NCBI GenBank assembly: GCA_010093705.1
Contig: MU006116.1
Location: forward strand, 198,702-262,701
Direction of reading: 5' to 3'
From: Patellaria atrata CBS 101060
Lineage: Eukaryota; Ascomycota; Dothideomycetes; Patellariales; Patellariaceae
DNA length: 64,000 nt
Of this stretch, positions 11,101-32,247 are shown piece by piece. Made by a program: the position numbers and the translations under genes. Each line of letters opens with the position of its first letter. The stretch's first letter is position 1. Under the pieces are notes generated by a model that ran no database searches, was not told the origin of the DNA, and worked only from the letters and a program-made list of their open reading frames with translations.

Positions 11101-11364
11101 TCATTTGCAAATGGTAAGATGTCTGAGTAAAAGAAGAACCACTGATAGACTATTTCAAGCGCTGAAACACGTTGGTGGCTGAGTCAATGGAGTAATCTGA
11201 TTTCATACGTATGACAGCACGGCAGGCTTGTGTCTCAAAAGGAGAGACCCTCCGCACTTCGCTCTACCATAGACTGATAATGAGCAAGAGAATCAAATCC
11301 CCAATGATTCCTCATCAAGATCCATTGTCTGCTCGACTCTGATACCGATAGATTGAGGCATGCC
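8199..11364. other. Gene-free stretch
   Basis: About 3.2 kb without a frame I can support on either strand. An 11-nt match to the end of the 43-kb MITE (CTGTAGTTCTA) lies at 8465-8475. Confidence 0.5.
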
Positions 11365-14300
11365 ATGGCGGAACCAATAGGTGCAATCGTTGCTGTATCG
11401 CACATCACTAATAGGATCATTAAATATCTGCGGGACGTCCAGGAAGCTGACAATGAGCGTGAATTTCTACTCAAACAGGTTAGAGATGCCAGTATGAATG
11501 CGATGTCTATACCCTTCCTCCTGGAGAGAGGGGTTGCATCATCATCAACAGCACCATGGGTCGTACATCTAACCCAATTGACTGGAAAAGATGGTTCGTT
11601 GGAGAAGTATGTGGCATTGTTACAAGAGATCGAGGAAAGAGTTAAAATAAAGGACGTATCGTCCCGTTCCAGACAAAGGGTGCAAAGGGTCTTTCAGGAT
11701 CTCGGGTTCCCTTTTCAAAAGACAGATTTGGACAACCTATTGAAAAGAGTGACGGTATATAGGGAGATGTTCAGGTCGGCGCTACAAAGAGTTGACGTAG
11801 AGGTTGCCATAGCAACGAGATCAATAGTGCAGACGTCCGAGACACAGCTTAGGGATTTGACAAGTTTGACGATACCGATGGTGTCTGCTTACTGAAAGAT
11901 CTAAAGGCCATTGAGCGATCGATACCGAACTTACGAGTACTTGTTGCGTCGAGGCCAGTACCAAATGAATACTTTGATTTATTCTATCCGGCTAATCAAG
12001 TAGACGTCGTCGTTCACGATACCGACCTAAGAAAGTTCGTCGAGGCAACACTGGAGGAGTTCGCGGAGATACGGGTCTTGTCTCCATTGCTCAAGGCTAG
12101 AACGTCGGATGAAGAGCGTCAACATATTGCCTCGCAGATCATTTCGAAATCTGATGGAGTCTTTATCTTGGCCAAGAATTCTTTAAGGACTATATCCCTT
12201 TGCGATACCAAGGTATCTCTTCTAGCAAGCTTAGATGATCTCGCCAAAAGCTCTGGAGATGCTATCGACGCAACTGTCACCAGAATTCGCGAGCAGGATT
12301 CTTGGGACAGACGCTCACTTGGCAGGAAGGCTCTAATTTGGATGGGAAATATAGGAAGAGGGTTGACAGTCGGCGAATTACTCCACGCTCTTTCGCTATA
12401 CACCAACAAGTTTACACCCGATTTGAACCATGACGCTGTCGGCGATGAATCACACCTTATCGCAGCAACTCAAGGAGTTATCTCAATCGAACCTTCTACG
12501 AAGTTGACGTTGATCGATAACAGTTTCCAAGAGCGGTTCGACGCGATCATCCCTAAAGCAGATATTGAAATAGCGGAAATTTGTCTACGTTACCTGAATT
12601 TTGAAACCTTTAAATCCGGTCACTGTACGTCAAAAGAAGCATAGGACCGCCGAAAGACCGAGTATCCCTTTCTAGGATATGCTGCTACTTACTGGGGATT
12701 TCATGCAAGTGTCGGTCCTGAAACCACACTCGTTGAGAAGATACTAGAAGTTCTGGGAAACGACGATATCGTTGCTTCTGCTGCTTAAGCCTTAATACCT
12801 GCCCTCGACTGGAACGGATTTCCAAAGAATTACAATGCCCTCCCCGCTCTTTCATCTCCACCACTGCTACGAGATATACACCTAGCAGCGTATTTCAATC
12901 TGTCTGAAACCATGAACCGGTTACTACAAGATAGAAACGATATCGATATTCAGTCCCTCAATGGATACACAGCACTGCACATCGCGTGTAAGAGAGGATT
13001 TATACCCATCGTTAAGTTACTATTAGAGCATGGAGCTGATCCAAATTACAGAAGTCAACAGGGCCACTCTATAATGCAAACGGCTGTGGAATGTATGAAA
13101 GAGGACTTGGTGAGGTTGTTGCTCGAGAAAAGTTCTGCAATCGTTAATCAGAGAGGGAGACAAAGCACGACACCACTGATGAGCGCTTGCAAGCTCAGTT
13201 TGAATAACATAAGCAGGATACTCCTTGAAGCTGGCGCGGATCCGTCCCTGAAGGATGACTCAGGCAATAACGCACTTCATTGGTGTGCGATATCTGGCAA
13301 CTGCAATATTGCTGAGGAATTATTAAAGTTACATCCAGAACTTGTCAACAATACCTCGAATCAAAACCGAACAGCATTATCATATGCAGCAGAGCACCGT
13401 CATTCTTCTATGCTCAAACTACTTTACGACATGGTGCAGGAGCATGCCTCAGAGATACCGTCGCCGACCACATTCCTCTTCATTGGAGTGTGAAATCAAA
13501 CCATCTAGAGGGCGGTGAGATACTTTTAGCTGCTGATCGTACTTCAGTAAATCGGGTCGGTAGTGACCACAAGACCTGCCTCGCATATGCAACAGAATGC
13601 CTTTCCGTTGATATGTTGCATCTATTGAAAAAATATGAAGCGGATCCGGGCATTCAAGATTATGATGGTAGAACCCCATTACATTGGGCTTTCTCTCAAT
13701 TATCCCAAAAGGACGCTGAGGAGGACCGGGTGAAGATAGTGACATTACTTCACGGAAACTTTGGGATCAATGTCAATTGTCAGGACTTCCGCGGAAGAAC
13801 AGCCCTGCATCTAGCCATCGAAGGACGTCTTCCAAAATCAGTTGGAAAACTTCTTGCAGCCGGAGCGGATCCTGGAATAAGAGCATTCGCGGAGATGGGA
13901 TGGAACGCATATCATTATTGCGCCGCATTCGGAACTCCCGAGATACTCCAACTGATATACGAACATACTAAAGGCCTCCATCTATTTGAACGAGCCACCT
14001 TCTAGTTCGACACGATTCTTCACACTGCAGTGGTAAGGCAAAACGTGAGCTTAATTGAACCGATACTCAGGCTTGGCTTTGATATTGAGGCGAGGACCCG
14101 CAGGCTATCCACACCGTTGACACTGGCATCAGACTTTAGAAATCTGGCTGCTGTGCCCATCCTACTAAAAAATGGAGCGAATGCATCTGCTCAGGATGAG
14201 GATGGATGGACAGCGTTTCGGTTTGCGGCAACGACCCAGGCAGATGACGTTCTAGCCGCATTGCTCGACTTGACAGTTGACCACTCGCCTCTCTTGCTCC

Positions 14301-14524
14301 CGAACCGGTGGGGTGAGTCGACGCTTCATGTTCCCGCAAAACATGGGCATGTGAAAATAGCTAAAGTGTTGGTTAAGAAAGCGAAGATACGAAGTATGTA
14401 CAAATGTAGAACAGCGGGAGGGCTTACGCCGAGGGATTTCGCCAATAAAGAAGGTGCAGATGGCGGTAACCAAAATTTTGGAGGAAGGCGAAAATTTGTC
14501 GACGAGATAGATCAGAGCTATTAG
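11365..14524 (+). pseudogene. Decayed STAND/NLR-type NACHT-ankyrin protein
   Basis: Intact relatives are fungal NLR-like proteins with a helical N-terminal domain, a NACHT NTPase and ankyrin repeats, several of which act in non-self recognition. Here the helical N-terminus starts at ATG 11365 (MAEPIGAIVAVSHI) and runs to a TGA at 11893. The frame then changes. The next readable part is just past a NACHT Walker B position (DDTDGVCLLKDLKAIE, then LRVLVASRP), so the Walker A segment is missing. Further lesions are TAG at 12642, TAA at 12786, a frameshift near 13430-13460 and TAG at 14003. About fourteen ankyrin repeats follow from 12940 to 14420, for example NGYTALHIACKRG and GRTALHLAIEGR. The three in-frame stops could all come from C-to-T changes in Gln codons. 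The gene cannot encode a full protein. Confidence 0.9.
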
Positions 14525-28627: not shown

Positions 28628-29677
28628 ATGCGGTTTCTTGATTGGCTTATTGCTGCATCGTTTGCGGCGGCTTTACCTGCCGCTCAGTTGGTGAGATCGT
28701 CGGTTCTTGTAAGAGTTCTATTCATGTTCCCCTCAAGATGTCACGGCGCAAGTATAGGGTAGCTTATCCCCCTAGGTCAAACCACGAATAGTTTCGGCTG
28801 GGACTAAACTTCCTCTGCATGGAGAAATTGTACCTGTATGTAATGTAGCTCTACTTGCCAAAGGTTGTATTGCCGGAACTGACGGTACAAAATAGATCAA
28901 GGAGAGATGTTTAGACTCAGAGGATTCAGATAACTTCGTCCCAGTAGGTCTAACAGGCGCATACTGAGGTCCTGTATCTTACGACGACAATGTGGTAGAT
29001 CAAAGCTCGTAACACCTTGGCGGAAGCCGATAGAAGTAAAAATGTCTCTTTACTAAGTGTGGATGAGAGTGGTGCCGTCCCTGTACGTACTTGTATCTTC
29101 GATCTATGGCGTTAATAACTGTGTGCATGGAGCTGATCGTATAGCTGTAGATCAAAAAGCGTTGTCTCGATACCGGAAGGTCGGATGATTTTGTACCGGT
29201 AAGTACATCGGTGCATGTGTCAAGGACAGGTATCTCATGACTGCACTGCGGTAGATCAAAGCTCGAAGTGATGTCGGAGGCGTTTCCTTGCTAAGTTTGG
29301 ATGAGGACGGTGCGGTGCCAGTACATAACCTCATTAGTAGTTGTTGGACAATTACAACTGACATTTCCGTAAGATCAAAACGAGGACCGAAGATAGTAGG
29401 GGGTCTCAACTAGTGAGTTTTCTTGCACCACTCAAATAAGCGAAGGTGGTAACAAAGCCTCTTCTAGTCTAAGGAGCGTTCTCCTTCGCCTTTGGACAGG
29501 GAATTTTGTGCCGGTATGTTAGGTTCGATATACCAGTAAAGGAATGAAGTTTGCTAAGGAGTCATAGATCAGCGTTCGCTCGGCCCAGTCTAAGGAAGGC
29601 AAGGATTTTGTCCCTGTACGTAAATTTCCAATAGTAGCCACGAAAGAGCTGGCCACTTACACATATTCTAGATCTAA
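28628..29677 (+). CDS. Secreted repeat-peptide precursor encoded by about ten micro-exons
   Basis: Exon 1 (28628-28690) encodes a signal peptide (MRFLDWLIAASFAAALPAAQL). Exons 2-7 are 28776-28835, 28896-28943, 28999-29082, 29151-29198, 29255-29320 and 29374-29412. Exon 8 is 29468-29513, exon 9 is 29568-29615 and exon 10 holds ATC TAA at 29672. Exons 2-7 and 9 are 39-84 nt, all multiples of three, and begin and end in phase 0. From exon 3 on, most units start IK-x-R and most end in VP. Short units are like IKERCLDSEDSDNFVP and IKKRCLDTGRSDDFVP. Long units share VSLLSxDExGAVP. Exon 8 is 46 nt and breaks frame unless it is skipped or spliced otherwise. The design resembles secreted precursors cut by a kexin-type protease into several peptides, but only one strict KR site is present. 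Function is unknown. Confidence 0.75.
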
Positions 29678-30294
29678 AATATGTTCTTCGTCGTGGATTC
29701 CTATTATAGTAGGTTCTAAACTGGATGATTGTTATGGAGCGAGTGTTTACTCCGTAGAAAATACACATTTCTTTGTCACAGAAGCCGAGGACAGTTTCAG
29801 CGTGGGATATGGCGGTAGTTTTCTGATGGTAGATGAGTTTCCATTCTCTTGACATCATCTTCAACTATTTCAACCATCTACCCTTCAATCATATAATATA
29901 GGTTTATATCCTCCAGTTATATTCAGATAGGAAGCTCTGAAAATTGGGCCTCGGACTCAGGAATATAATTAATCCGCCAGTTTCTTTCAGCAGAACTTGA
30001 ACACTGAAGACGTAAATCAGAACTATCGTATGTTGGTATATAAGGTATGGAGTACTGAACGTTTTGGAGCACCTACGTGATCACGAGGTTCGCGTCTGAG
30101 CCCGAGACTTACCCGACTCGACGCGTTTACCCAACGCGTCGAGTTACTGCAACGCACTCTACCTTAATTTTTTATTCACAGATTACCATTATGTCCCCTT
30201 CAATTTAATACGACTTCAGGATACTAAAGATCTGTTTATCGAATCCTTTATTTATACTCAATATCTGCGACAATATCAATACTCAACATTTTTC
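29678..30294. other. Intergenic, helicase promoter
   Basis: Nothing coding recognised. It contains the ACGCGT inverted repeat listed separately. Confidence 0.5.
30116..30144. promoter_or_regulatory. Inverted repeat carrying two ACGCGT (MCB-like) boxes
   Basis: Arms ACTCGACGCGT (30116-30126) and ACGCGTCGAGT (30134-30144) are perfect inverted copies around a 7-nt loop. Each contains ACGCGT, the MluI cell-cycle box bound by the MBF complex in yeasts at G1/S genes. The boxes lie about 155-175 bp upstream of the ATG of a DNA helicase gene, a fitting target. Binding is inferred, not shown. Confidence 0.5.
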
Positions 30295-32247
30295 ATGGAC
30301 GACTTTCGTACTCATCGGAATCCTGTCCAAGTCCCTCCACTCGCTCGAAATCATTCCGGACAAGACTTGAAGAGAGATCGCTCTCAAGTCGATATTGGTA
30401 CAGCGTACGATGCTTCATACAGCTTTAAACGGCGCTCGTGTAATTCTACACGTTCAGTTCCGAGGGAGGTAGAGGTGATTAGTCTCCTCTCATCAGACGA
30501 GGAAGATGAGTGTATTCCCTTACCACACACCACTCTCCGATCATTCCGTGCTCAGATATCAGGCCAAGTACACGATATTACCTCGAGCCGAAAACCTTTG
30601 GGTGACATCAGCAATTTGGAATCAGTACACAACTCCAGCCTGCCAGATGTGTCGCCGACATTGAAGACTGAAATTTACTTGTCTTCTAACGCCTCCCCTC
30701 GCGATCCAGCCGTTATACCAACGGAGCCGAAACTGTGCAAAGAACAGCAGGATTTAGTGGACCTCATATCAAGCGGAAAGAACGTATTCTACACTGGATC
30801 TGCAGGGTGTGGAAAATCCACTGTCCTTAAAGCTTTCGTGAAGCGTCTGAGGAACGAAGGTAAACAAGTAAACATTATTGCACCTACTGGCCGGGCAGCG
30901 TTGGATATCAACGGGTCTACTACTTGGACGTACGCTGGATGGACGCCGGATAGTCACAAGAAGGCGATCAAGAAACTACGGGAAGCAGCACACGGCAAAT
31001 TCGTCATGAAACGGCTCAAGGCTACAGATGTTCTGGTCATTGATGAAATCTCTATGGTAGAAAATTTACATTTTGAACGTATCAACCACCTCATGAAAGA
31101 GGCTAGGCGTAGAGAGGACGCTTTCGGAGGCGTTCAGTTAGTCGTTACCGGTGACTTCTGCCAACTTCCTCCAGTTAAACCATTCCAACACTGCATCGAA
31201 TGTGGGAGAGAACTGCAAGCCAACCTAACTCAAACGGAGTATACTTGCGTAGAACATGGAAAATACTTTGACATCGATAAATGGGCCTTTAGGAGTAAAG
31301 CTTGGGGGGAGTGTCGCTTCGTCCACGTGAATCTGACAAATATTCATAGACAGAGCGACAAAGTTTTTATTGATCTTCTTCAGCGTTGTCGTCTAGGACT
31401 AAACCTCTCGCAGAAGGACGAAGATCTTCTCCTCAATCACCCCTCATCAACTGAGAATGCAGTGAAGCTGTATTCAACTCGGGAAGAAGTACGTCGGGTT
31501 AACCTAGAGGCATTTCAAAAGCTCCGAACTCCACCTATCCGTTACAGGTGTTACGATCACTTTAGGCACAATCCGGAGCACAAACATTTACGGTGGAAAA
31601 CCGCGAGGAGCCCTTTCGATAACTCATTAACTGCGCTCCAAGACCATCGATTCGATGCTTGGATTGAGGTGAAAGAGGGTATGTTAGTCGTATTACTAGT
31701 CAATCTCGACCTTCAAGCCGGTCTCGTCAATGGTAGCCAGGGCGTCATAGTTGGTTTTGAAGAGTACGACCCTGCAAAGCTCCCAAAGGCGCTTTCTGAA
31801 TCCGAAAAACGGAGTAATGCTTCTATCCCTAATGTCCTCATTGGAGATCATGTTCATCTTCGCGAAACAAATATCCAAAGGTTCATTGACCAAGCAGATC
31901 GAAAAAAATGGCCAATTGTTCATTTCGACAACGATGTGACTCGCACAATATATGCGGATTGTCGTGTGCATGAACTAGGCGACGAACTGCCGTATAGTCT
32001 GCTCTCGCGAACGCAGATTCCCTTGACAGCGGCATGGGCTATGACGATACACAAATCACAAGGTATGACTCTAAACAGAGTTGTCGTCAATTTGTCGAAG
32101 AACTTCGAAGAAGGTCAAATGTATGTTGCGCTATCGAGAGCGCGGAGTCTTGAAGGACTGAAAGTTGAAGGATTGGGGAGTTGTATGGGTGGTGGGAATG
32201 AGCAGGTGAAGGAGTTTCTGAGGCAAAAGTTTGGAATAATGGGATAA
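30295..32247 (+). CDS. PIF1-family 5'-3' DNA helicase
   Basis: PIF1 helicases act on telomeres, replication forks, G-quadruplexes and mitochondrial DNA. This single-exon gene gives 650 aa from the ATG at 30295. Walker A is GSAGCGKST (168-176), Walker B is VIDE (248-251), and motif III is GDFCQLPPV (286-294). Near the C-terminus are AWAMTIHKSQGMTL and YVALSRARSLEGLKV. The first 140 residues are hydrophilic and unconserved-looking, except for VISLLSSDEEDE (61-72), which looks like a SUMO-interaction motif. Right after motif III a segment with C300-x2-C303-x14-C318-x2-H321 could bind zinc. No clear mitochondrial presequence is seen. The upstream ACGCGT pair suggests S-phase expression. Confidence 0.93.
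   Translation: MDDFRTHRNPVQVPPLARNHSGQDLKRDRSQVDIGTAYDASYSFKRRSCNSTRSVPREVEVISLLSSDEEDECIPLPHTTLRSFRAQISGQVHDITSSRKPLGDISNLESVHNSSLPDVSPTLKTEIYLSSNASPRDPAVIPTEPKLCKEQQDLVDLISSGKNVFYTGSAGCGKSTVLKAFVKRLRNEGKQVNIIAPTGRAALDINGSTTWTYAGWTPDSHKKAIKKLREAAHGKFVMKRLKATDVLVIDEISMVENLHFERINHLMKEARRREDAFGGVQLVVTGDFCQLPPVKPFQHCIECGRELQANLTQTEYTCVEHGKYFDIDKWAFRSKAWGECRFVHVNLTNIHRQSDKVFIDLLQRCRLGLNLSQKDEDLLLNHPSSTENAVKLYSTREEVRRVNLEAFQKLRTPPIRYRCYDHFRHNPEHKHLRWKTARSPFDNSLTALQDHRFDAWIEVKEGMLVVLLVNLDLQAGLVNGSQGVIVGFEEYDPAKLPKALSESEKRSNASIPNVLIGDHVHLRETNIQRFIDQADRKKWPIVHFDNDVTRTIYADCRVHELGDELPYSLLSRTQIPLTAAWAMTIHKSQGMTLNRVVVNLSKNFEEGQMYVALSRARSLEGLKVEGLGSCMGGGNEQVKEFLRQKFGIMG

Follow-up and report, generated by a model that had tools for sequence, protein, structure and literature searches.

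The window analysed here is a stretch of 64,000 nucleotides of Patellaria atrata DNA, corresponding to C28:198702-262701 of a genome of 28.3 Mb in 46 contigs, and its end is the end of the contig. It contains, at positions 28628-29677 on the + strand, a repeat gene with symmetric phase-0 exons and a start that resembles a signal peptide by eye, a description that is supported by the DNA. Open-frame exons with usable splice sites, a duplication and protein-level constraint on the repeats are all observed, and the comparisons among its own repeats make the gene look real and under protein-level selection. The explanation preferred here, held tentatively and somewhat short of probable, is a secreted precursor, modular in build and with an unusual exon layout, that has grown by duplication of a pair of exons, termed A and B, and that is predicted to be cut at some of its tags.

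Exon structure

The gene is readable as nine phase-0 exons separated by GT-AG introns of 53-85 nt, plus one of 155 nt. The joined exons total 462 nt and encode 153 aa and a stop. After a signal-peptide-like exon, so judged by eye, come seven short repeat exons, between 39 and 84 nt long (13-28 aa), and lastly an exon consisting of ATC TAA. The original prediction had described this anatomy, with a signal-peptide exon, short exons nearly all in multiples of three, mostly with IK-x-R starts and VP ends, and a final ATC TAA, and its coordinates check out. It had also described the repeat exons as phase-0, and all nine exons are indeed multiples of three in phase 0 under the predicted splicing, in which a stretch at 29468-29513 is treated as skipped. 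Because every modelled exon is in phase 0, loss, skipping or copying of a cassette keeps the frame open.

Exon 1 (28628-28690; MRFLDWLIAASFAAALPAAQL) has the donor GTGAGA and a codon score of +0.121 bits/codon. Exon 2 (28776-28835; VKPRIVSAGTKLPLHGEIVP) is a divergent first repeat, the VKPR of which fits a relaxed Kex2 motif; it scores 26 bits with the profile model R2, of which it is itself a member. Two exon types then alternate, type A of 16 aa ending in FVP and type B of 22-28 aa with SLLSxDExGAVP. Exon 3 (28896-28943; IKERCLDSEDSDNFVP) is of type A and exon 4 (28999-29082; IKARNTLAEADRSKNVSLLSVDESGAVP) of type B, and their respective copies are exon 5 (29151-29198; IKKRCLDTGRSDDFVP), which carries the sole dibasic tag, and exon 6 (29255-29320; IKARSDVGGVSLLSLDEDGAVP). 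Exon 7 (29374-29412; IKTRTEDSRGSQL) is weak, with an AAG acceptor, the donor GTGAGT and no VP end. Exon 8 (29568-29615; ISVRSAQSKEGKDFVP) is type A-like and also a member of R2. Exon 9 (29672-29677) follows the acceptor TTCTAG and has the AG/ATC start of the repeats (slashes mark splice borders). All of these exons are on the + strand. The tag at the start is IK-x-R in five of the seven repeat exons, VKPR in one and ISVR in one, and VP is found at the end of every repeat exon except exon 7. Five consecutive exons (2-6) have the form [I/V]K-x-R...VP.

A read-through end was considered and rejected. The open frame continues for 78 codons beyond exon 8 (29616-29849) with a codon use of -0.106 bits/codon, compared with +0.078 for the joined exons. 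Because this extension scores like non-coding DNA, the ATC TAA exon is preferred as the end of the gene.

Several other features were observed in the window. A PIF1-like helicase gene in one open frame lies downstream of the repeat gene (30298-32247). An ankyrin-repeat gene, possibly a fungal NLR-like gene, extends across several overlapping frames at 11308-14524, of which 12789-13493 was scanned. Open frames at the contig end (60959-62865) resemble a copia-type retroelement; the first of these frames has a weak match, below the cut-off, to Pfam DUF6565. That the DNA is fungal agrees with its gene content, which includes a fungal glucuronoyl esterase and the UstYa family, and with its short introns.

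Protein-level constraint and cassette duplication

The independent evidence for the gene is a substitution test. The comparison of exon 3 with exon 5 and of exon 4 with exon 6 used 35 aligned codons; 19 of these come from exons 4 and 6 (28 and 22 codons long), whose middle part could not be aligned and was excluded. Exons 3 and 5 gave a pS of 1.14, a saturated value in which differences exceed sites, and a pN of 0.23; exons 4 and 6 gave 0.61 and 0.17, respectively. Pooled, the two pairs have a pS of 0.82 and a pN of 0.20. High pS combined with low pN between the repeat pairs argues that the frame is coding and constrained at the protein level. Residues are identical at 26 of the 35 positions despite 36 base differences in 105. 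When these differences were placed at random, none of 20,000 trials reached 26 identities (mean 13.4, largest 21), and 14,372 made a stop. Exon 8 gave a pS of 0.77 and a pN of 0.46 when compared with exon 3, and a pS of 0.71 and a pN of 0.52 when compared with exon 5, which suggests lower constraint and is a weaker sign of selection.

The V and P codons at the exon ends differ at the third base, which indicates that the end motif is held at the protein level. The first codon is ATC in six of the seven exons, and the exon start is perhaps also held at the splice level. Codon use of the joined exons (152 codons) was +0.078 bits/codon, and none of 5000 samples of non-coding codons scored as high; two stretches of spacer supplied the non-coding codons, and most background frequencies came from one of the two as well.

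A repeat of 43 nt straddles the border between intron 3 and exon 4, and its second copy, at 79% identity and a spacing of 256, straddles that between intron 5 and exon 6. Intron 3 (28944-28998) and intron 5 (29199-29254), both directly 5' of a type B exon, have similar tails. Their last 32 nt (28967-28998 and 29223-29254) are identical at 23 positions, whereas none of the remaining 35 pairs among nine introns exceeds 15; the two pieces that adjoin 29468-29513 are counted as introns here. The shared tails and the 43-nt repeat indicate that a cassette of A exon, intron and B exon was copied together with its introns. The precursor gene would have grown via tandem duplication of this cassette. 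The tails of introns 3 and 5 are more alike than are synonymous positions in the exons, which may point to a recent copy, to conversion or to an element used in splicing.

Clustering and uniqueness of the exon pattern

A scan for [ILV][KR]xR...[VI]P between AG and a GT[AG]N[GA] donor gave five matches on the + strand of the window, all of them consecutive in the repeat gene (exons 2-6). No match was found on the - strand of the window, on either strand of 82,002 bases of other genome stretches (62,002 bases included) or in 100 strands of 64 kb simulated with a first-order Markov model. Since the pattern was taken from the repeat gene itself, this result describes rarity and clustering and is no independent discovery. 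The same holds for R2, a sequence-only model of six exons, which ranked those six highest in 126 kb, necessarily so by construction. Outside its training set, R2 found two matches up to E 10 in the 126 kb, and both belong to the repeat gene: 29471-29519 (8.8 bits, E 0.095), which overlaps the repeat-like stretch 29468-29513, and 29372-29402 (2.9 bits, E 7.1), which overlaps exon 7.

The splice-border motif VP/GTANGT occurs at 177 sites genome-wide. Six of these lie inside the repeat gene in a span of 792 bp, five at modelled exon ends and one at the end of 29468-29513. Inspection by eye of the 177 sites showed no further group of at least three. The window holds seven VP/GTANGT sites and four FVP/GTA sites, compared with 0.31 and 0.17 expected, respectively. 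The motif as such has no genome-wide excess, as the reversed control gave 211 sites against the 177. FVP/GTA was found at 117 sites genome-wide, compared with 131 in the reversed control, and the four of the repeat gene are among the 17 from C20:43900 onward. One other same-strand pair of VP/GTANGT sites within 1 kb was seen by eye (C20:106796 and 107418, -); the site at C20:106796 lies antisense inside a match to the kexin P-domain. Two further pairs, picked out by eye with the first 100 of the 117 FVP/GTA sites, were rejected as DNA without such exons. One consists of two same-strand FVP/GTA sites less than 2 kb apart (C1:1410721 and 1412459), the other of an FVP/GTA and a VP/GTANGT site on the same strand (C1:3040583 and 3041174).

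Searches of the genome with an 82-aa query (exons 3-6) and a 57-aa query (exons 1-3), at E up to 10, returned the gene itself alone, and it is apparently single-copy. These searches use the repeats of this gene, so that the same exon design with different repeats would escape them.

Tags and putative processing by kexin

The tags were compared with a relaxed Kex2 motif in the form [LIVMTPF]x[KRTPEI]R, the P4 set of which is wider than the aliphatic P4 of the published motif. In the excerpted text of PMC8528282, that motif has Arg at P1 and Lys/Arg, Thr, Pro, Glu or Ile at P2, with an aliphatic residue favoured at P4. VKPR, IKER, IKKR and IKTR fit the expression, and IKAR (twice) and ISVR fail it. 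IKER, IKKR and IKTR are the fitting tags that bracket the two A+B pairs. One tag of the seven, IKKR, is dibasic, with one KR and one KK site that overlap. A match to a kexin-type P-domain is present in the genome (C20:106572-106832). According to part of the text of a fungal Kex2 study (PMC2515848), cleavage took place where predicted in about two thirds of the proteins tested and did not in the others; a motif alone is thus no proof of cutting.

The release of peptides by kexin after each IK-x-R, as originally proposed, does not agree with these tags, since IKKR alone is dibasic and both copies of IKAR, as well as ISVR, fail even the relaxed motif. The broader reading of the gene as a secreted repeat precursor is retained in part: the phase-0 repeat exons, the selection and the lack of a described family stand, and the kexin cut at each tag is not supported.

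As a modular precursor, the predicted spliced product would enter the secretory pathway, and a kexin-type protease would cut at VKPR, IKER, IKKR and IKTR and spare IKAR and ISVR. Such cuts would yield a short propeptide, two related A+B peptides and a tail. The two A+B peptides would have the form CLD[S/T]...FVPIKAR...SLLS[V/L]DE[S/D]GAVP plus tag, with an N-terminal Cys and lengths of 44 and 38 residues including the tag. The apparent alternation of fitting and non-fitting tags is read from these two A+B pairs. A more specific proposal combines one repeat per phase-0 exon with two alternating tag classes, such that kexin cuts at the A-exon tags release the A+B peptides, and skipping or duplication of exons edits the peptide set; we consider this doubtful.

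The predicted protein has a mean hydropathy of 0.461 and a net charge of 0, and by this crude charge-hydropathy value it falls off the disordered side. Because the protein is not marked as disordered, a modular repeat protein that is secreted and stays whole, with the repeats as binding or structural modules and IK-x-R...VP as module borders, is a serious rival, if a somewhat unlikely one. It agrees with the six non-dibasic tags of the seven and with the three (IKAR twice and ISVR) that fail the relaxed motif, and SP7-like effectors are, in excerpts of PMC11333574, secreted proteins with imperfect repeats. Against it stand the spacing of three of the four fitting tags, which bracket the A+B pairs, and the shortness of the protein, which has two cysteines and no domain match.

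The weak 3' end

An eighth repeat-like stretch, absent from the original prediction, lies inside the 155-nt gap between exons 7 and 8 (29468-29513, +). It is 46 nt long, sits between two pieces the size of introns (55 and 54 nt) and is out of frame, with a tag-like start and an FVP-like end in different frames. As its length is no multiple of three and its two ends are in different frames, inclusion gives an early stop; it may be a dead or decayed exon, a skipped exon or an assembly error. With this stretch and exon 7, the 3' end of the gene looks partly decayed. The decayed appearance, the weaker constraint on exon 8, the lack of a relative in the genome, the lack of a genome-wide excess of VP/GTANGT and the small number of A+B pairs (two) behind the tag alternation count against the modular precursor. 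A decaying gene, with repeats that were formerly selected and a locus that is now losing function, would account for the broken frame of 29468-29513, for the AAG acceptor and missing VP end of exon 7 and for the fact that searches of the genome gave no paralogue. Such decay is unlikely, as the start codon, the signal-like exon, exons 2-6, exon 8 and the stop are all open with usable splice sites, and skipping of 29468-29513 leaves an in-frame product.

Comparison with known systems

The repeat gene had no match in Pfam, NCBIfam or PDB at E up to 10, NCBIfam being a prokaryotic library and therefore a weak test, and Rfam gave nothing across the window at gathering scores. The earlier statement that no described family with this repeat was recognised is thus borne out in these protein collections. 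Among the open-licence PubMed Central titles and abstract starts listed, no fungal micro-exon effectors and no secreted proteins with one repeat per exon were found.

Kex2-processed repeat proteins (KEPs; Le Marquer 2019; Umemura 2020), which include the dikaritin precursors and Epichloe GigA, are similar to the present gene in having a signal peptide (here a signal-peptide-like exon, by eye), imperfect repeats and a basic tag at the repeat borders. They differ in that six of the seven tags here are non-dibasic, each repeat has its own exon and the contig has no UstYa match. The KEP screen described in part of the text of PMC6339444 asks for at least four fragments after cuts at KR/RR (or KK), at least three of them similar. 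The repeat gene has repeated similar motifs and, by eye, a signal-peptide-like exon 1, and with its single dibasic tag, the overlapping KR and KK of IKKR, it falls short of the four fragments and outside the published KEP definition. The words intron and exon occur 0 times in the KEP papers PMC7329392 and PMC6339444, and in a third, PMC9769878, intron occurs once and exon 0 times.

UstYa (DUF3328) gave nine exon-level matches at E up to 0.001, located on C2, C6, C8, C13 and C32. None is on C28, the contig of the repeat gene, which stops at the window end; the UstYa gene that lies beside dikaritin and epichloecyclin precursors was thus not found there. An open frame of 194 aa on C8 (513258-513842) has five KR tags between similar repeats like DSAWWVYIPDLNYDEA and sits between the UstYa matches C8:511379-511777 and 514925-515360, with which it likely forms a dikaritin-type cluster. 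KR-tagged precursors were looked for in one 10 kb stretch each on C8 and C6, two of the five UstYa contigs, and none was found in the C6 stretch. An ordinary KR-tagged precursor is thus present in the genome, close to UstYa matches and with all repeats in a single open frame. The repeat gene of the window is built differently, and the parallel with gigA that had been drawn is weak. One dibasic tag in seven, against the five KR tags of that precursor, also counts against a cut precursor.

That the window gene is itself a typical KEP or a dikaritin/epichloecyclin precursor, as the signal-like exon, the repeats and the kexin P-domain match in the genome could suggest, is very unlikely, as one KR and one KK overlapping in IKKR do not give the at least four fragments required in the excerpts of PMC6339444 and none of the nine UstYa matches is on C28. 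A chance pattern in non-coding DNA, for which it can be said that exons 2, 5 and 7 singly score slightly below zero in codon use, is scarcely credible in view of the substitution test, the exon clustering, the codon use and the intron-tail identity.

The original prediction also drew a parallel with the micro-exon genes of schistosomes, in which, according to excerpts of PMC5825161, about 80% of the coding sequence is contributed by symmetric exons 6-36 bp long. The likeness holds for the signal peptide (here a signal-peptide-like exon, by eye), the tandem, symmetric, short exons (predicted) and the potential for in-frame skipping. It does not extend to exon length, as the repeat exons are 39-84 nt, the last exon is 6 nt and, by the range in those excerpts, one exon of the nine (exon 9) qualifies, well away from a share of about 80%; in addition, the repeats here are mutually similar.

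The SP7-like effectors of arbuscular mycorrhizal fungi, likened here by description, have a signal peptide (in the present gene a signal-peptide-like exon, by eye) and, as here, imperfect repeats with a conserved island at the end of each. The excerpts of PMC11333574 describe a conserved intron before the first repeat and do not mention inter-repeat introns. In the present gene an intron likewise precedes the first repeat. Effectors with a Kex2-processed pro-domain (K2PP) share the relaxed Kex2 motif in a secreted protein, and differ in that theirs marks one removed N-terminal pro-domain without repeats, as given in part of the text of PMC8528282.

Significance

In the literature covered, the excerpts cited and the listed titles and abstract starts from open-licence PubMed Central, a design with one repeat per phase-0 exon is undescribed. 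Gene finders are poor at such short exons. The published fungal repeat-peptide screens considered here start from predicted proteins, and that of PMC6339444, in its excerpted text, starts from dibasic sites. With exons of 39-84 nt and non-dibasic tags, a precursor of this kind could escape such screens on both counts. If confirmed, the finding would suggest a search for similar genes at the DNA level, and would show how introns between repeats allow a set of secreted peptides to change cassette by cassette.
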